Source: Gammaproteobacteria bacterium
GTDB lineage: Bacteria > Pseudomonadota > Gammaproteobacteria > JAADHQ01
Assembly (NCBI GenBank): GCA_011052215.1
Contig: DRJK01000009.1
Coordinates: 1-32,341 of the forward strand
Reading direction: 5' to 3'
Length of the DNA stretch: 32,341 nt
Shown: in pieces, positions 6,964 to 32,259 of the stretch
How the letters are laid out: every line of letters begins with the position of its first letter
How positions within the stretch are numbered: the first letter of the stretch is position 1
The notes under the pieces: model-generated
The model's input: the letters and a program-made list of their open reading frames with translations, nothing else
Databases searched by the model: none
What the model was told of the DNA's origin: nothing
Program-made: the position numbers and the translations under genes

Positions 6964-7848
6964 ATGACTGAAAAGCATTATTCCTATCTCTTTCCTGATC
7001 TATGCCTGTTGTTTGCGGCTACATTGTGGGGGATTTTCTGGTATCCATTGCGCCTGTTCGAGTCGGCAGGTATGCCGGCTATATGGGTCACACTGGCGGC
7101 ATTCAGTACTGCATTTGTTGTCGGGCTGATAGCCACATACAAACAGAGACGGCAGTATCTTGTTCACCCGTTAAAGCTGGTATTGATTGCATTGACAACG
7201 GGCTGGAGCAATGCGGCTTTCCTGGTGGCCGTCGTTGATGGCAATGCCATCAGGGTTATCCTGCTTTTTTATCTGTCACCCATATGGACGGTGATAATGG
7301 GTTATTTTATCCTCAAGGAAAAAATTTCCTTGCAGGCGATGGTGGTTTTTGTATTGGCCTTTCTGGGTGCAGTGGTGATGTTATGGGACCCTGATGCAGG
7401 ATTTCCCTGGCCACAGGGGTTGCCGGACTGGCTGGCCTTGTCGGCCGGGTTTACATTTGCATGGAGCAACGTGTTGATACGGTCTATTCAGGACATCAAC
7501 ATATCCATTAAAACAACTGCAAGCTGGTCAGGTGGCATCATAATCGCAGGGTTGTGGATTTTACTCACCGGTGGGCAACTACCGGAAATACCGGTACTCA
7601 CCTGGTACTATAGTATGATGCTGGGCTTCTTCGGGATTGTATTCATGACCATGGCCGTTCAGTATGGCGTTACACACATGCCGGTTTATCGTTCTGCTAT
7701 TATCCTGATATTTGAAATACTGGTAACGACTGTAACCGTGTACTGGTGGGCCGGAGAAAACATGACAATGATAGAATGGATTGGTGGCGGCATGGTGGCG
7801 ATCAGCGCATGGCTGATCGCGCGGACGGGTGTTGACAGTGAAGGTTAA
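6964..7848 (+). CDS. EamA/DMT-family transporter
   Basis: 294 aa, about 10 hydrophobic segments, typical drug/metabolite transporter pattern. Confidence 0.88.
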   Translation: MTEKHYSYLFPDLCLLFAATLWGIFWYPLRLFESAGMPAIWVTLAAFSTAFVVGLIATYKQRRQYLVHPLKLVLIALTTGWSNAAFLVAVVDGNAIRVILLFYLSPIWTVIMGYFILKEKISLQAMVVFVLAFLGAVVMLWDPDAGFPWPQGLPDWLALSAGFTFAWSNVLIRSIQDINISIKTTASWSGGIIIAGLWILLTGGQLPEIPVLTWYYSMMLGFFGIVFMTMAVQYGVTHMPVYRSAIILIFEILVTTVTVYWWAGENMTMIEWIGGGMVAISAWLIARTGVDSEG

Positions 7849-7960
7849 CATCCATATTTAAATGGCTTATCCATGTAGATACTTGCATTATGATGATCAT
7901 ACATGGTTTGCCAGCCAATATATCTGGCCGGGGGTCAGACTGGGTCAAGAGTTTCCTGAC

Positions 7961-10609
7961 TCAGGTATCCAGTAATTCAAGCAATGTATCCCTGAGTGCA
8001 TTAAACTGTTGCTCATCAAGAGGGCGGTTGTTCTTGTCGGTAATATAGAAAAAATCTTCAATACGCATTCCAATGGTGGCAATTTTTGCATTTTGCAAAT
8101 CAATTTCACATCGTTTGAATGCCTCACCAATTCTCGAGAGTAATCCGGGTCTGTCTGCAGTGGTCACTTCAAGAATGGTTCGGGAGTTATTTTTATCCAG
8201 CGTGTAGCTGATCCTGGTATTGACTTCAAAGTGCTTATGTAGCCTTGGTATCATTCGATTAACATTGTAGTCAACCGCGTTTTCTGTACTTAAGGTGTGC
8301 TTGAGGGCTTCCTTTATTTCATTCAGTCGTGATGGATCCTTGATGCTCTTGCCATCATTTTCAAGCACCAGATAGGTATCCAGTGTGTAATTACTTCGTG
8401 TACTTAATATTCGCGCATCAACGACATTAAGGTAACTTTTTTCCAATGTTGCAGTTGTTGCCGCAAATTGGTGGGCCTTTAAAGGCCCATAGATAAAAAT
8501 TGCGGTGCTTCCACGGTTATTATCATAGCGCACACAAATCATCGGAAAGGAATTTTCTTTCATTGTTGATATCGATGTAATGTGCCAGGCAATTTCTTCA
8601 GCCGAGTACTGGATGAAATAGTCCGGGCCGAAATCCGACCAGATATGATCAATTTGCTCACGGTTTAATGCCGATGCATTCAATAACCCGTAAACATCTG
8701 CCTTTTTACTGGCAATAATTGTTTGATGACTTGTGTATTCGTCACTGCTCATGCGCAGTGCCTTATTGGTTGCATGGTATAGTTCTTTTAGCAGTGAATC
8801 TTTCCATGAATTCCATAATGCAGGATTTGTGGCACGAATGTCGGCGACTGTCAGCAGATAAATATAATCGAGGTGCGTACTGTCTCCCACTTTATTGGCA
8901 AATTCCCTTATGACTTCAGGGTCACTGATATCTTTTTGTTGTGCCGTCATGGACATGAGCAGATGATTTCTTACCAGCCAGGCCACCAGGTTCGTGTCAT
9001 ATTGCCCGAGGCCATGATCGATGCAAAACTGACGTGTATCTGTTTCGCCAAGTTTGGAATGATCTCCTCCACGGCCTTTTGCGATGTCATGATAGAGTCC
9101 GGCAATATAAAGTAATTCAGGCTTGGCAATATTCGAGATTATTTCACTGCATAACCTGAACTCATTTCGAAATTCAGGCACGGTAAAACGGCGCAGGTTC
9201 CTGACTACAAAAAGGATGTGTTCGTCAACGGTATAGATATGAAACAGATCGTATTGCATACGACCGGTAATGTTTTCAAAAGCGGGCAAATATGCCGCGA
9301 GAATACCATATCGGTTCATTCTTCTAAGTTCGTGGGTTATACCTGTCGGTTGTTTTAATATTTCAAGAAAAACACTTCGCGTGCGCAAATCATTTCTTGC
9401 TTTATCATCCATGAGTCCCCGGTTTGACCGAATCAGCCTGATGGTAGAGGCGCGCACGCCTTTTATTTTCGGGTCAAGCTGTAATAGTAAAAATATTTCA
9501 AGCAGTGCATATGGAAAATACCTGAAAATATTGGGATGTACTACCTCAATAAAGCCACGCGTAAGCTGGAACCTGCGGTTTATTGCCTTCGGTGTGACCG
9601 GGTCGGCAGAGTATAAAATTTCTTCCTGAAAATTTTGCAACAACATTTCATTAAGCCGATCCAGTTCCATGACTGTCCGGTAATATTGTTGCATGAATTG
9701 TTCGACGGCCAGGTTCTGCTTATTGTCTTTATAGCCAAAATCATGAGCTAATGTTTTCTGGTAGTCAAACAACAACCTGTCTTCACGTCTTCTTGCATGA
9801 ATATGGAGTGCAAAGCGGATCTTCCACAGAAACCGCTGGCCCTCCAGAAGAAAATGAAATTCATCTTCACTCAGGAAATCATGTTTAACCAGTTCGTGCA
9901 GGTCCCTGGTGTTAAAGTGACGTATTGCTACCCAGCCAATCATCTGGATGTCGCGAAGTCCTCCGGGGCCTTCCTTGATGTTGGGCTCAAGTTTGTTTGC
10001 TGTATCACCATATCTCAGGTGTCTGTTCTGTTGTTCATTCCATTTCGCTTCAAAAAATTCATCACTCGGCCATAAATGATCTGTTGATACTTTTTCCTGC
10101 ATCTCCTCAAACAGTTCTTCTGATCCAGTCAGAAATCTTGATTCGATCAGATTAGTGATGACAGTGACATCTTTCTTTGACTCCCTGACACAATCTTCAA
10201 CGGTACGTACGCTTTGCCCAACCTCCATGCCAATATCCCACAGCATGGTTAAAAACGATTCAATGTTACCTTCACTGGATTCAAGCACTTCCTTACTGAA
10301 AAGTAATAATAAATCCACGTCAGAACCCGGGTGAAGTTCACCACGGCCATATCCACCTACAGCAATCAGTGCAGATTGTGTGGATTTACTAAAGAATTGG
10401 CGCCATGCGCGTTTCAGCAACTCGTCAATTAATAGCGCGCTTTCATGTACGAGTAAATCAATGTCATCGTTTTCTTCAAAGCGTCGTTGCAGGCTTTGTT
10501 TGCCCTTGCTCAGGGCTTCCCGAAATATTTTTGCAGGGTTTTGTGCAGAGGCGATTGCAGCATCAAAATGCGGGGCATCAAAAACGATACTTTTGCTGAG
10601 GTCTCTCAT
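7961..10609 (-). CDS. glnD: [Protein-PII] uridylyltransferase / uridylyl-removing enzyme
   Basis: Nucleotidyltransferase motif GGYGRGELHPGSDVDLLLL, HD domain GLYHDIAKGRGGDHSKLG, C-terminal ACT repeats. Start set at MRDLSKSIVF (10609) because the longer ORF overlaps map. Confidence 0.95.
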   Translation of the reverse strand: MRDLSKSIVFDAPHFDAAIASAQNPAKIFREALSKGKQSLQRRFEENDDIDLLVHESALLIDELLKRAWRQFFSKSTQSALIAVGGYGRGELHPGSDVDLLLLFSKEVLESSEGNIESFLTMLWDIGMEVGQSVRTVEDCVRESKKDVTVITNLIESRFLTGSEELFEEMQEKVSTDHLWPSDEFFEAKWNEQQNRHLRYGDTANKLEPNIKEGPGGLRDIQMIGWVAIRHFNTRDLHELVKHDFLSEDEFHFLLEGQRFLWKIRFALHIHARRREDRLLFDYQKTLAHDFGYKDNKQNLAVEQFMQQYYRTVMELDRLNEMLLQNFQEEILYSADPVTPKAINRRFQLTRGFIEVVHPNIFRYFPYALLEIFLLLQLDPKIKGVRASTIRLIRSNRGLMDDKARNDLRTRSVFLEILKQPTGITHELRRMNRYGILAAYLPAFENITGRMQYDLFHIYTVDEHILFVVRNLRRFTVPEFRNEFRLCSEIISNIAKPELLYIAGLYHDIAKGRGGDHSKLGETDTRQFCIDHGLGQYDTNLVAWLVRNHLLMSMTAQQKDISDPEVIREFANKVGDSTHLDYIYLLTVADIRATNPALWNSWKDSLLKELYHATNKALRMSSDEYTSHQTIIASKKADVYGLLNASALNREQIDHIWSDFGPDYFIQYSAEEIAWHITSISTMKENSFPMICVRYDNNRGSTAIFIYGPLKAHQFAATTATLEKSYLNVVDARILSTRSNYTLDTYLVLENDGKSIKDPSRLNEIKEALKHTLSTENAVDYNVNRMIPRLHKHFEVNTRISYTLDKNNSRTILEVTTADRPGLLSRIGEAFKRCEIDLQNAKIATIGMRIEDFFYITDKNNRPLDEQQFNALRDTLLELLDT

Positions 10610-11635: not shown

Positions 11636-12661
11636 ATGGCAAAAGTAACAATGCGCCAGATGCTTGAAGCAGGCGTGCATTTTGGTCACCAGACCCGTTA
11701 TTGGAACCCGAAAATGGCACCATTCATTTTCGGGGAAAGAAGCAAGATTCATATCATCAATCTTGAAAAAACCCTTCCTCTTTATAATGAAGCGACTAAT
11801 TTTATAAGCAGTCTTGCTGCGAAACGTGGCAAGATCATGTTTGTTGCCACCAAACGTTCTGCCCGCAATGCGATAGCTGAAGAGGCGGAGCGTGCAGGCA
11901 TGCCTTTCGTTAACCATCGATGGCTGGGTGGAATGCTGACCAATTTCAAAACAGTCAAACAGTCGATAAAAAGACTGAAAGACCTGGAATCAATGGATGC
12001 TACCGGTGGGTTTGAACGTTTGAACAAGAAAGAAGCCCTGATGCGTACCCGTGAAATGGAGAAACTCAATAAAAGCCTGGGTGGTATCAAGGACATGAAG
12101 GGGCTGCCAGACGCACTTTTTATTATCGACGTGGACCATGAAAAAATCGCAGTGCAGGAAGCAGTAAAGCTGAATATACCCATCATTGCTGTCGTTGATA
12201 GTAACAGTGCACCCGATTCGATTGATTATATTATCCCGGGTAATGATGATTCCATCCGCGCCATTCAACTTTATACACATGGCATTGCCGAGGCTATTCT
12301 GGAAGGCAAGGCAACTGCTTCACAGGTTTCAGATAGTAAAGATGATTTCATTGAAATGGATGAAGAAGGCAAATCAAAAAAACCTGCCAGGAAGGCCCCC
12401 GCCAAGAAAGTCGCGGTAAAGAAAAAAGCCGCACCAAAAGTAGCAGAGAAAAAAGCGGATGCTGAAGAATCGGATACTGAAAAAGAAGTAAATGTGGCCG
12501 AAGAGGGTGATGAAGCCAGGAAGCCTGCCGTAAAGAAAGTAGCAACCAAAAAGACCGCAGTAAAAAAGACCACGACAAAAAAAACGGCGACCAGGAAGGC
12601 TGCTGTCAAGAAAGCAACCACCAAAAAGTCAACTGCAAAAAAAGTCAAGACCGAAGAGTAA
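11636..12661 (+). CDS. rpsB: 30S ribosomal protein S2 with lysine/alanine-rich C-terminal extension
   Basis: Starts [33 protein letters not shown] after a CTGGAG Shine-Dalgarno. The supplied ORF start at 11567 is too far upstream. Confidence 0.95.
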
Positions 12662-12731
12662 CCTGATGCATTGTGGCTTTATTGTTTATTGAATCGGTTG
12701 CTTGAACAGATATTTATAGAGGAAATTAATT

Positions 12732-13607
12732 ATGGCTATTACAGCGGCACTGGTTAAGGAATTACGTGAGCGTACCGGTGCAGGTATGATGGAATGCAAA
12801 AAGGCGTTGGTAGAAACCGATGGTGATATTGATAGTGCGATAGAAGCAATGCGCAAGTCAGGTCTTGCAAAGGCCGATAAAAAGTCAGGTCGCGTGGCAG
12901 CAGAAGGCATAATCAGTATTCATGTGTCTGACGACAAGAAGCTCGCGTTAATGGTGGAAATCAACAGTGAAACTGATTTCGTAGTCAAGGGTGATGATTT
13001 TAAGGGATTTGTTACCACAGTTATGAATTGTGCAGTACAGGAAAACCCGGATGATATCGAAGGACTGTTATCTGCAAAAACCGACAGCGGTGATACGGTG
13101 CAAGAGACATGCAAAGCGCTGGTGGCCAGGATTGGTGAAAAAGTACAGGTGCGCCGGTTTGCCAGGATTGCCGGGGAAAATGAGGTGACAACCTATTTGC
13201 ATGGTTCGCGTATCGGTGTTCTGGTTGAGCTCAAGGGTGGGGATAAAAGTCTGGGTAAGGATCTTGCTATGCATATAGCAGCCAGTCGACCTGTCTGTGT
13301 CAAGGCAGAGGATGTGCCGGCCGGAGTACTGGACAAGGAAAAAGAAATTTTCTCTGCGCAAGCCCGGGAAAGTGGTAAGCCTGATAATATTATTGAAAAG
13401 ATGGTAGAAGGCCGTCTCCGTAAATATTTATCTGAAATTACCTTGCTGGGACAGCCTTTCGTGAAAGCCCCGGATATGACAATTGAAAAACTGCTGACAG
13501 GAAAAGGTGCCGAGGTTATCAGTTTTATACGCATGGAAGTAGGTGAAGGCATAGAGAAAAAGACTGAAAACTTTGCTGATGAAGTAATGGCGCAAGTTAA
13601 AGGCTAA
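12732..13607 (+). CDS. tsf: Elongation factor Ts
   Basis: [44 protein letters not shown]... Confidence 0.97.
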
Positions 13608-13616
13608 CGACCTTTT

Positions 13617-13662
13617 CCGGATGTTATCCGGGCATTCTGATGTTTCATCGTGATGAAATGCC
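13617..13662 (+). other. Tandem hairpins in the tsf-pyrH intergenic region
   Basis: CCGGAT-gtt-ATCCGG (13617-13631), then a second potential stem, GGCATT (13631-13636) with AATGCC (13657-13662), containing TTTCAT-cgtg-ATGAAA. No clear T-run. Confidence 0.45.
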
Positions 13663-13688
13663 AGCGCCCACTGTCATAGTTCTGATAA

Positions 13689-14435
<747 letters not shown>

Positions 14436-27718: not shown

Positions 27719-28489
27719 CTACGGAATGTTGTTTAGTAATATCAGGGCATCACATGGGCTGCCACATCTTTTTTCTATCTTTGGTTCCAGTAATGCCATC
27801 AAAACGGGCCAGTATTTTTCCGGTATTGTTAGTAGTTCCGGTTGTTGGGGATTGGCCGCCATGGCCAGCGCTTCTCTGCCCTGGCCTGTATTGATCCGTT
27901 GTCCACACAGCATTTCATAAAATAAAGAGCCAACCTGGTATAAATCACTCTGAAATGACCAGCGCTTGCCTTGAGCCTGTTCAGGTGAGCAGTAGGTATA
28001 TTTTGAAATCCAGGTAGAGGTTGTCATGTTGGTTCGAAGAGGAAAATCGGAACATCCAAAATCAATCAGAAACACCTTTCCGTTACTGTCCAGAAGGATA
28101 TTGTCGGGCGTAATATCTGAATGAACAAGCCCTGCGTCCTTGAATGATATCAGGAGTATAAGTAATCGCCTTATAATGCCGATAGAACAGAGCTGACTGA
28201 TATGATTGCTTTGTATGAGTTTGTTCAGGTGAGTACCTTCTATATATTCGTAAGCAAAATAGGGTTGTTTTGTTGCCAGGTCAACAAATACAGGGTGAGG
28301 AACATTATGTAAACGCAGTTTTTCCACGATTGATTTTTCCTGCATGAATCTTTTCAGTGCAGCCTGATTATTGATGTACTCCTCTCTAAGTATCTTTACA
28401 ATAGTTAACTTGTCAAACCTGACCTTGTACAGGTTTGCAGTGCTGCCCGAATAAAAACATTTTCCATTTTCCAGAGTGGTCATGTTCAT
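27719..28489 (-). CDS. Serine/threonine protein kinase-like protein
   Basis: VHSDITPDNILLDSNGKVFLIDFG catalytic and metal-binding loops, CSPEQAQG (APE-like), SDLYQVGSLFYEMLCG. ATG at 28489 overlaps the upstream stop (ATGA). Confidence 0.88.
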   Translation of the reverse strand: MNMTTLENGKCFYSGSTANLYKVRFDKLTIVKILREEYINNQAALKRFMQEKSIVEKLRLHNVPHPVFVDLATKQPYFAYEYIEGTHLNKLIQSNHISQLCSIGIIRRLLILLISFKDAGLVHSDITPDNILLDSNGKVFLIDFGCSDFPLRTNMTTSTWISKYTYCSPEQAQGKRWSFQSDLYQVGSLFYEMLCGQRINTGQGREALAMAANPQQPELLTIPEKYWPVLMALLEPKIEKRCGSPCDALILLNNIP

Positions 28490-30477
28490 GGATCCCAGTG
28501 CCTGTGCTTTGTTATTAATACAACCGTGCGACCAGTCCACTTTTTAATAAAAGAGGCTGTCTTTAAAGAAAGTTCAGTGCCACTATAGGGTGAAAATATA
28601 GTGGTGCGTGAGTCTGTGAAATCACGTATAACGACAGTTTCACCATTATCCAGTAGTGCGAGGCAGGGTGTTGCTATAATAAAATTGCCATCATCCGTTG
28701 AGTAGTCAATGGTTTTTATTGAATAGTTGTATTGGTTTGCAATATTGGCAATGGTGGCGAGATCCACATCTGCATCAGTTATTCTGGAAAAATAGGGTAA
28801 TATATTTCTGATGTTAATGTTATTTCCATAATCGCGTAACAGAAAAGTAATTGCAGATATCAGGCTTCCGGTTTCTGATGAGGCCTTGAGCGAAGTATAT
28901 TTATAATGGGTATTAATCAAACCATTTTGAAAATTTATAAAACCGGAGGGCAGGGATTTATCAGTGGCCGTTGTATACATATTCTTCATAAACAGATATT
29001 GAAATAATAACAAAACTACTATTGATATAAAGCTGTAACCGATAGTTTTGAACTGGATAGTCCGCTGCAGATGAGATATTTTATTTACAGTGATCACGAT
29101 TAATATTATCAGCAAGGAGATAACAGATAACATCTTGTACGTTGCCGCGATAGTTTCAAAGTAACGGACATAGAATGTTCTGTAATAATTTGCATGAATA
29201 GTCCTGGTGATAATTCCTTCACTAAACAGAGGGAGTTTTTCAATAATCCGGCCACGTTTATCAATAATGGCCGAGGTTCCTCCATTAGCGGCCCGTAAAA
29301 CAGTTTTTCCCGTTTCTATTGCACGCAGGCGCGCTAGTTGCAAATGTAATAATGGTAGAATAGATGGCCCTGCATAGGCATCATTAGTCATGATAACAAT
29401 AAACCCGGCCCCTGTAGCGGCCAGAGTGACGGCAGGAGCCGGAAAGGCAGACTCAAAGCAGACCAGTGTACCCGGTCTTCCTGGCAGAAAATAATGTGGT
29501 TTCCAGATGATATCCCTGGAGATATCATTCTCAATAAAAGGGATCAGCAATTTTTTACTCCGCCTGCTGAGTATATCGCCATTAGATGACACAGCAAAAA
29601 CGGAACTGTATGAATGTCCGGATGGGTCTATATCCGGGCTGGCGACAAGCATATCAATCTTATACTGATCGGCAAGATTACTGATATTATCATTGTTTCT
29701 GAATTCATATTTTGAAAAATTGACTTCAGGCCAGATGATTATATCGCTCTTGATTTTTTGTCGGGAAACGGCCTTGATGAATTTCAATCTTGTTTTATAA
29801 AGCATTTCAATATTACCATCAGAGGGCATGCCCAGGGTAGTAAGTGGATGTATATTACTTTGAACTATACTAACAGTCACAGGATCACCGGCATTCTCGT
29901 TCGTGGTCGGCACAATAATAAATGTCATTAAAAATATTATAAGTACAGGTGCCACGGTTACCGGTACAAATACATACAGACTGCATTCTTTTACCTTTAT
30001 ATAAGTAATTAAATAAATAACCTGAAATACAATCAGGAGCACAGCAAGCAAATATTGCCCGCCAAACTCAGCGGGCATAAGCAGTATATTCATTGGCATA
30101 AGAACGAGTGAAAGCGTGCTGGGTATATGTATGGAATGTAAAGTGATTTCGATAGCCAGCCATATGCAAGGTGCAACAAACACGGCAAGAATTTTATTGA
30201 TTTTTATAAGGAAGATAACAGATGAAACCAGTAGTGTAATTGAAATTGTTGTGAGTAATATAACCAGCAAGTACACAGTTATGTCATATGTCCAGGTGCC
30301 AAAAAAAATATAGCCTGAGATTATAATGCCCAGTAGCATCCCGCTTACCCAAGTAGCAGAGTTTTTATTATTTATATGATGTATAAAGACAGGCAGTAAA
30401 AAAAAACACCCGACGACGGGCATGCTTATTGGAGGTAAGGCGAATATGAACAGTAAGGCGGAAAGTATGACATGCAT
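28486..30477 (-). CDS. Apolipoprotein N-acyltransferase-like protein fused to a C-terminal degenerate C39 peptidase-like domain
   Basis: 663 aa; N-terminal TM bundle, then nitrilase-type motifs IIWPEVNF, KKLLIPFIE, VCFESAFP, MTNDAYAG...RLRAIETGK. Further TM segment, then about 155 aa (28489-28953) with C39-like layout. Confidence 0.8.
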   Translation of the reverse strand: MHVILSALLFIFALPPISMPVVGCFFLLPVFIHHINNKNSATWVSGMLLGIIISGYIFFGTWTYDITVYLLVILLTTISITLLVSSVIFLIKINKILAVFVAPCIWLAIEITLHSIHIPSTLSLVLMPMNILLMPAEFGGQYLLAVLLIVFQVIYLITYIKVKECSLYVFVPVTVAPVLIIFLMTFIIVPTTNENAGDPVTVSIVQSNIHPLTTLGMPSDGNIEMLYKTRLKFIKAVSRQKIKSDIIIWPEVNFSKYEFRNNDNISNLADQYKIDMLVASPDIDPSGHSYSSVFAVSSNGDILSRRSKKLLIPFIENDISRDIIWKPHYFLPGRPGTLVCFESAFPAPAVTLAATGAGFIVIMTNDAYAGPSILPLLHLQLARLRAIETGKTVLRAANGGTSAIIDKRGRIIEKLPLFSEGIITRTIHANYYRTFYVRYFETIAATYKMLSVISLLIILIVITVNKISHLQRTIQFKTIGYSFISIVVLLLFQYLFMKNMYTTATDKSLPSGFINFQNGLINTHYKYTSLKASSETGSLISAITFLLRDYGNNINIRNILPYFSRITDADVDLATIANIANQYNYSIKTIDYSTDDGNFIIATPCLALLDNGETVVIRDFTDSRTTIFSPYSGTELSLKTASFIKKWTGRTVVLITKHRHWDP

Positions 30478-30678: not shown

Positions 30679-30957
30679 ATGGCACATCTAAGAAGTAAAA
30701 AATCTGTAGGAAAAATCCGACAACGTGGTCAGGGAATGTCTGAATACTTAATCATCGTAGCACTGATAGCCGTCGCGGCCATTGGTGTAGTAGGTTTTAT
30801 GGGCGATACCGTAAGTAATCAGATGGCCAGTATGGCGATGGAAATTTCCGGCCAGAATGGCGGTACAGCAACAACAACAGCCCAGACTCAAGCCACAGCT
30901 GCAGAAACAAATGCAAATGTAGCCAAGAAAATGGGTAACTTCGCGACCGCAAACTAA
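30679..30957 (+). CDS. Flp/TadE-type (type IVb) pilin-like protein
   Basis: RQRGQG/MSEYLIIVALIAVAAIGVVGFMG: prepilin-peptidase-like G followed by a hydrophobic helix with Glu near the start; Ala/Thr/Gln-rich tail; AGGAGAG Shine-Dalgarno. Confidence 0.85.
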   Translation: MAHLRSKKSVGKIRQRGQGMSEYLIIVALIAVAAIGVVGFMGDTVSNQMASMAMEISGQNGGTATTTAQTQATAAETNANVAKKMGNFATAN

Positions 30958-31015: not shown

Positions 31016-31053
31016 AACTCTTGCTATTACGTAAGCTAGGGATGGGTTGCGCG

Positions 31054-32259
31054 ATGAAAAAAGTTAGCTTCTTTAATCTGGAATACCAAAAGGGACAGGC
31101 ATTGATCCTGGGGGTTTTTCTGGTATTGGCCACCGCAATGGCTGCCGTTCTGATGTACAACAATGGTCAAACAACATCCGAGAAGACACGACTGGTCAAT
31201 GCGGCCGATGCTGCGGCCTATAGTGGTGCTGTATTTTTCGCCAGAAACCTTAATTTTCTTGCCTATACCAACAGGGCGATGATAGCCAATCATGTGGCGA
31301 TAGGCCATTTTGTCAGCTATGTATCCTGGCTCAGGTATGTCAAGAAATCGATAGCGAAACTCAATAACTATACGCGCTTCGTACCCTATATAGGTCCTGC
31401 GGTCGCCTATGCAAACAAGGTCATGGGTTGGGTGAAAAAGGGGACCGAGAAGGCGGCTCCTTTTATTGTGGAGGGGGCAGATGGGTTGAATTTTGTTCTT
31501 CATAAAGCCCAGAACAAAGGTCAATTTACCATGAATGGGGTCATGTCCGTATCGAGCTTCCTGAAGGTCAAAATCATGGACAAGGTTGCAAAAACCTATG
31601 ATCCAACGATTCGTATTAATTACAAAAAGGACGTCAATACAACCGGGGGTAAAATAGCCGCGGTACAGGTCATGACGGATATCGCAAAGGTCTTACGATA
31701 TGTTAAACGGTATACCGCTAATAATGACAAAGGCCGTTTAAAGTCAATGGTTGAAGACAGCTATGACATCTCGGCGCCGTGGATCAGGGGTAATCGCGGT
31801 TGGGGCGTCAACCTGGTGGTAGTCAAGCTCAACAAATACGGCAGTACACAACATACGATGACGGGTAAAAAAACCGACTGGAAGGCCAACGACAAACTTG
31901 TTTATCGTTGGTGGACACTCAAAGGGTGGAAAAGCAGTACCGTCGCAACTGGCAAGGCGTCAGCACGTGAATTTTCCAGGAATTATAAGGGTGTACCGGG
32001 TTATTACGATCTAAGGAAGCCAGGTAAGGATGCAGATCAGATACTGAACATATCGGCACTGGCCACCATGCCGGTTTCGACCACAAGATTCATGCAACTA
32101 ATGGGCATGAAGCCCGGAGCACAACGGCTGGCGGCGTTATCTCGTGCCGAGATATTCCATGAAAGACCGGAAAAAGGCTTTGCCAGGCTGGGTAAAGGTG
32201 AATATGCAAACCTGTATAACCCGTTCTGGCAAGTCAGGCTGACAAAAAACCAGATATGA
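31054..32259 (+). CDS. TadG/Tad-domain-like pilus assembly protein
   Basis: KGQALILGVFLVLATAMAAVLMYNNGQTTSEKTRLVNAADAAAYSGA is a Tad-like N-terminal helix; the rest is family-specific. Start chosen at MKKVSFF. Confidence 0.7.
   Translation: MKKVSFFNLEYQKGQALILGVFLVLATAMAAVLMYNNGQTTSEKTRLVNAADAAAYSGAVFFARNLNFLAYTNRAMIANHVAIGHFVSYVSWLRYVKKSIAKLNNYTRFVPYIGPAVAYANKVMGWVKKGTEKAAPFIVEGADGLNFVLHKAQNKGQFTMNGVMSVSSFLKVKIMDKVAKTYDPTIRINYKKDVNTTGGKIAAVQVMTDIAKVLRYVKRYTANNDKGRLKSMVEDSYDISAPWIRGNRGWGVNLVVVKLNKYGSTQHTMTGKKTDWKANDKLVYRWWTLKGWKSSTVATGKASAREFSRNYKGVPGYYDLRKPGKDADQILNISALATMPVSTTRFMQLMGMKPGAQRLAALSRAEIFHERPEKGFARLGKGEYANLYNPFWQVRLTKNQI

Follow-up and report, generated by a model that had tools for sequence, protein, structure and literature searches.

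We identified, in the 32,341-nucleotide stretch of DNA analysed here (the window), a gene that joins an Lnt-type N-acyltransferase module to an extra transmembrane (TM) helix and a C39-like domain, and that lies in a Tad-pilus locus. All 13 fusion genes compared are located in or beside tad genes, in several families and with differing gene orders. Our analysis suggests that the Tad pilus of some bacteria has a lipid-attaching enzyme of its own. In the mechanism we propose, this Lnt paralogue would act as an N-acyltransferase for the pilus, and its C39-like domain, without catalysis of its own, would serve for docking, either by capturing the substrate or by holding the enzyme at the Tad machine. 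We regard this reading, in which the fusion is an Lnt-type N-acyltransferase dedicated to Tad and docks through a C39-like domain that is non-catalytic and probably periplasmic, as about evenly poised between right and wrong. The initial annotation of this DNA, which had suggested that the fusion could couple lipidation to the binding of a substrate, missed the main clue, the Tad-pilus locus.

The fusion gene (28486-30477, minus strand) is an uninterrupted reading frame with an ATG start, encoding 663 aa. Pfam matches CN_hydrolase at residues 217-433 (2e-20) and Peptidase_C39 at residues 533-654 (1.1e-7; 32.2 bits, where the cut-off is 22), and the protein passes the NCBIfam lnt cut-off (TIGR00546; 158.5 vs 132.9 bits); among the part of the homologues for which this cut-off was checked, the G234 fusion scores below it. 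Neither Pfam nor AlphaFold gave any ABC module in the frame. The AlphaFold model of the whole protein, with 11 homologues as input, has a mean pLDDT of 84 and a pTM of 0.86, and that of the last 160 residues a pLDDT of 82 and a pTM of 0.77; in Foldseek the whole model aligns with crystal and cryo-EM structures of Lnt over about 500 columns (TMt at most 0.77). Five segments follow one another along the protein, all encoded on the minus strand: an N-terminal, LNT_N-like multi-TM part (residues 1-195; 29893-30477), recognised by hydropathy and AF2 helices, where 6 of 10 family members match LNT_N; a predicted periplasmic nitrilase domain (residues 196-432; 29182-29892), which carries the CN_hydrolase match and resembles Lnt structures 5vrg, 5xhq and 5n6h in Foldseek; TM8 (residues 440-465; 29083-29160), seen in the AF2 model and the Foldseek alignment and also present in canonical Lnt; the extra TM9 of the AF2 model (residues 476-505; 28963-29052); and the C39-like domain (residues 533-656; 28510-28881), predicted to be periplasmic and lacking the Cys/His/Asp triad, as delimited by Pfam, AlphaFold, Foldseek and alignment. 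An Lnt-like enzyme fused to a C39-like domain is what the initial annotation had described, and the Pfam, NCBIfam, AlphaFold and Foldseek results agree with it.

Lnt has eight TM helices and a periplasmic nitrilase domain (PMC8689077). In 12 of the 13 homologues, the loop between TM8 and TM9 contains three to six Lys/Arg and at most one acidic residue. Under the positive-inside rule such a loop is probably cytoplasmic, which would place the C39-like domain in the periplasm; the extra helix would thus set it on the same, periplasmic, side as the nitrilase domain.

The active site was compared in an alignment of the 13 fusions with 33 canonical Lnts, using the E. coli residue numbering of PMC7943197 and PMC8689077. 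The protein encoded in the window has all four residues: the catalytic Glu251 (29725-29727), Lys308 (29554-29556; the first K of KKLLIPF) and Cys340 (29458-29460), together with Glu316 (29530-29532), all on the minus strand and equivalent to E267, K335, C387 and E343 of E. coli Lnt, respectively. The first three are the plausible E/K/C residues that had been read earlier from the motifs WPEV, KKLLIPF and VCFES. Other positions differ from the canonical enzyme. The tryptophan of the 'DAW' motif, present in 33/33 canonical Lnts, is Y or F in 13/13 fusions, and the Thiodiazotropha fusions have CSD in place of CYE beside the catalytic Cys. In the G069 fusion (L012/L045) the catalytic Lys is replaced by Gln.

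These substitutions feed the main rival to a Tad-dedicated acyltransferase, which we consider fairly unlikely, namely that the Lnt module no longer performs acyl transfer and that the protein has a structural role in the Tad machine or helps to assemble it, much as GspAB does in type II secretion. The Gln of G069, the CSD of Thiodiazotropha, the DAY or DAF of every fusion and the long branches of these proteins all fit such a pseudo-enzyme, as does a weak Foldseek match (E 8e-3) of the C39-like domain to 4g54, a periplasmic domain of EpsAB; this type II secretion protein acts in secretin assembly (PMC6532946), and the match to 4g54 is suggestive only. Against it stands the retention of Glu, Cys and the E343 equivalent in 13/13 fusions and of Lys in 12/13, within a nitrilase part that is the most conserved region of the fusions (about 35% mean identity vs 20-28% elsewhere). 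The changes in G069 and Thiodiazotropha also count against the Tad-dedicated reading, as do G276 and G258, two genomes whose related tad locus has no fusion gene close by.

Divergent from the fusion gene in the window is a Flp-type pilin gene (KIRQRGQGMSEYLIIVALIAVAAIGV; 30679-30957, plus strand), with a Flp_Fap match of E=5.5e-4, under the Pfam cut-off, and with orthologues in tad loci. It is followed by a gene for a TadG-like protein (31021-32259, plus strand; Tad domain 1.5e-7), after which the contig (C9) ends. Contig C35 of the same genome (L088) carries genes for P230, CpaB, RcpA, FHA-TadA, TadB, TadC, DUF192, an FHA-TPR protein and the lipoprotein TadD, and synteny with G001 and G003 suggests that C9 and C35 are neighbours. 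The Thiodiazotropha loci read tadB-tadC-DUF192-tadD-fusion-flp-tadG, with the fusion between tadD and flp. Neither the prepilin peptidase TadV nor TadZ was seen within the locus stretches covered. In a reverse test, the related TadG type was searched across 369 gammaproteobacteria: the fusion lies beside tad genes in 12 of the closest 14 carriers (all except G276 and G258) and in 0/8 of the loci with a more distant TadG that were examined. The fusion therefore tracks one Tad subtype.

Other features of these loci deserve mention in their own right. In most of them, tadC is followed by a gene for a DUF192 (COG1430) protein (L088:6915-7280, L060:3650-4054). P230 (L088:423-1106, L037:5454-6146, L086:254-973) is a conserved secreted protein without a convincing Pfam match, and in G234 its gene is divergent from the fusion gene. 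At the locus end, a TadE-like minor-pilin N-terminus is fused to PT-HINT in G003 (L039:13310-15499) and to the Rhs-type DUF6531 in Ca. Thiodiazotropha (L060:14566-15669); these combinations of TadE-like and polymorphic-toxin parts suggest a pilus-tethered or Tad-delivered interbacterial toxin.

The substrate of a Tad-dedicated acyltransferase would be part of the Tad machine itself, and our leading candidate is TadD, the pilotin of the RcpA secretin, since it is the sole recognisable lipoprotein that recurs in these loci. Its lipobox is found in the window genome, G001, G003, G057 and both Thiodiazotropha loci, and no other lipobox protein is recurrent there; in some carriers tadD cannot be seen, several contigs being cut short. 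In P. aeruginosa, TadD is a lipoprotein pilotin required for formation of the RcpA secretin (PMC10499894). Nonetheless, TadD should already be acylated in these cells by canonical Lnt, which leaves no obvious need for a second enzyme.

A private paralogue beside canonical Lnt would suit a non-standard substrate. AatD, a homologue of Lnt that serves the Aat secretion system alone, N-palmitoylates an N-terminal glycine with the same four residues (PMC7943197). By analogy, the target of the fusion might not be a Cys lipoprotein but the N-terminus of a protein that has no lipobox and is exported by the Tad system or along with it; examples would be a locus protein cleaved by signal peptidase I, such as P230 or P296, or a minor pilin-like protein. 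We judge this reading unlikely. We are equally doubtful of its wider form, in which the fusion acts on a non-canonical N-terminus of a Tad component or Tad-secreted protein and the C39-like domain is the periplasmic receptor. P230 and P296, both with signal peptides, are indeed conserved in the locus. However, the predicted mature N-termini of P230 (ED.., EG.., GEL.., ADP..) show no conserved Gly, for which reason we prefer TadD as the substrate, with low confidence. Until they are extracted, pilins keep their N-termini at the cytoplasmic face of the inner membrane, which would put these N-termini out of reach of a periplasmic active site.

At least 13 gammaproteobacterial genomes carry the fusion, which answers the initial annotation's call to look for it elsewhere, and it is tad-linked in them. 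The carriers are the window genome, three more of the same genus, G057, G086, G209, G069, G234, G149, G355, G260 (a contig-cut copy) and two Candidatus Thiodiazotropha genomes; they are uncultured genomes or symbionts, many of them fragmented. A pattern scan of 84,980 genomes, limited by its pattern and missing the type found in G149 and G355, returned 8 loci, and the title of each record was either Gammaproteobacteria or Ca. Thiodiazotropha. When 399 Pseudomonadota were scanned with a C-terminal profile, the matches beyond the window's own sat in transporter-length frames, and the single match of fusion-like length (660 aa) proved to be an RTX exporter. No relatives of the fusion were found in the viral contigs scanned, plasmids gave only ordinary Lnt-like matches covering about half of the query, and the fusion protein had no match in PADLOC (phage defence).

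The window genome also has a separate canonical lnt (503 aa) on contig C36, beside frames which we take, reading by eye, to be ybeX/corC and ybeY. The gene in the window is consequently not a canonical lnt with a C-terminal extension, a case that the initial annotation had named as one of two grounds for doubt, together with the advice to search near ybeX. Canonical copies are present in most other fusion genomes; none was found in the G069 assembly, which is 95% complete but in 500 contigs. In a tree of the Lnt part, the 13 fusions form one side of a 100/100 branch that separates them from the 33 canonical Lnts of this sample, and several long fusion branches make the inner branching order unsure. 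It is very improbable that the fusion is an ordinary second lnt placed near tad genes by accident: NCBIfam labels 11/11 of the members scanned as plain lnt, but linkage to tad in 13/13 cases, several families and varied gene orders, together with the separate clade, speaks otherwise, and the linkage counts already disfavour this explanation.

A C39 fold is recognisable in every fusion member, by profile or by alignment. With Foldseek, the C-terminal domain of the window protein matched AMS/PCAT 6mpz, the Vibrio C39-like 3b79, HlyB (7sgr and 3zua) and PCAT1 with E-values of 3e-6 to 4e-5 and TM of 0.60-0.68; a PDB search with the domain as a single sequence (one residue of the query was wrong) gave no match, whereas profile and fold searches did. 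AlphaFold and Foldseek, the check suggested at the outset for this C-terminus, therefore returned a C39 fold, and the other ground for doubt falls away. Counting back from the conserved 'R-x-x-G' locates the catalytic Cys position of C39 at Ser538 (28864-28866, minus strand), which is S, A, T, K or P among the homologues and Cys in 0/13. The His and Asp positions are occupied by Glu613 and Ser629 in the window protein, with His kept in 1/13 homologues and Asp in 2/13. From these losses we conclude that the C39-like domain is non-catalytic. A missing Cys and a His position without His had been reported before: Glu613 bears out the latter, and the loss of the Cys stands, although its site had been misplaced, S538 lying two residues after the T of the 'ETG' to which it was assigned. 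A likeness to the C39-like domains (CLDs) of HlyB-type transporters, also proposed earlier, is seen both in Foldseek (7sgr/3zua) and in the best non-fusion matches of the domain, which are mostly Cys-less CLDs of type I exporters (E as low as 1e-15); Cys-bearing C39 domains match less well (1e-6 to 1e-8). In the domain tree, the fusion domains stand apart from Cys-less CLDs as well as from Cys-bearing C39 (support 90/95), which is weak evidence for so short a domain. That the domain is still a protease for Tad prepilins or leaders has next to no chance of being right: its fold matches the leader-bound C39 peptidase 6mpz, but the absence of Cys from every member and the rarity of His and Asp led us to reject an active C39 protease, and the predicted side of the membrane is wrong for leader cleavage.

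A Ser/Thr protein kinase-like frame with HSD and DFG motifs (27719-28540, minus strand; Pkinase 2.3e-23) follows the fusion gene. Its likely start is an ATG inside the frame (28489-28487) that shares the sequence ATGA with the fusion stop, which suggests that the two genes may be translationally coupled. A Pkinase-family frame stands directly after the fusion in 11 of the 13 loci. The kinase is missing from both Thiodiazotropha loci, which do have the fusion, and in G013 (L134:12077-12934) a kinase gene of the same family is divergent from flp in a tad locus without the Lnt-C39L gene; the two are therefore locus partners, not an obligate pair. Matches of the kinase in PADLOC were rejected as signs of phage defence since they reflect the general kinase fold. 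At its N-terminus the motor ATPase TadA has an FHA domain, and an FHA-TPR protein is encoded nearby (L037:8467-10167 and 12247-13881; L088:3472-5160 and 7293-8780). FHA domains bind phosphothreonine. With the kinase gene, the FHA domains on TadA and on the TPR protein make a phospho-switch on the pilus motor possible, and Tad assembly might thus also be phospho-regulated.

If the Tad-dedicated reading is true, Lnt-type enzymes would have been recruited repeatedly as private lipidation factors of single envelope machines, with AatD as the known case, and the C39-like domain that type I exporters use for recognition would be movable to the outer side of the membrane. Should the substrate instead be a non-canonical N-terminus, the fusion would join Lnt and AatD as a third kind of N-acyltransferase in the Lnt family, and lipidation would be a built-in step of the type IVc pilus. 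Whether a pilus machine lipidates its own pilotin or cargo becomes a testable question. The automatic annotation 'apolipoprotein N-acyltransferase' hides both the C39-like fusion and the Tad link. In the open-licence literature we found no paper tying Lnt to Tad or to C39, in line with the earlier impression that no Lnt-C39-like fusion had been described.

How do these proteins and loci compare with known systems? The common parts of a Tad/Flp (type IVc) locus are Flp, TadG, TadE, CpaB/RcpC, RcpA, TadA, TadB, TadC and TadD; the loci described here add FHA-TadA, the FHA-TPR protein, DUF192, the Ser/Thr kinase and the Lnt-C39L gene. Canonical Lnt (TIGR00546; E. coli 5n6h/5vrg) has the same TM and nitrilase architecture and the E267/K335/C387 and E343 equivalents, whereas the fusions form a separate clade with Y/F for the W of 'DAW', an additional TM helix and the C39-like domain, and are linked to tad rather than to ybeX. 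The peptidase C39 domains of PCAT/ComA/AMS transporters (6mpz, 4ry2, 3k8u) have the fold in common with the fusion domain (TM 0.60-0.68), which lacks their catalytic Cys/His/Asp and ABC transporter. The CLDs of RTX type I exporters (HlyB 3zua/7sgr, 3b79) likewise have a C39 fold without the catalytic Cys. In HlyB the C39-like domain is cytoplasmic. CLDs of type I exporters are N-terminal, cytoplasmic and borne by an ABC exporter, while the fusion domain is C-terminal, predicted to be periplasmic and borne by an acyltransferase. AatD (PMC7943197, PMC7478709), which we liken to the fusion by description, not by sequence, has an ABC/T1SS-like partner and no reported C39 domain where the fusion has tad genes, and its N-terminal Gly substrate has no evident counterpart at the fusion loci, P230 lacking a conserved mature Gly. 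Like the fusion, however, AatD belongs to one envelope system, exists beside a canonical Lnt and has the same four residues, and with all 13 fusions linked to tad it appears, by analogy, to be the closest precedent of a system-dedicated Lnt homologue.
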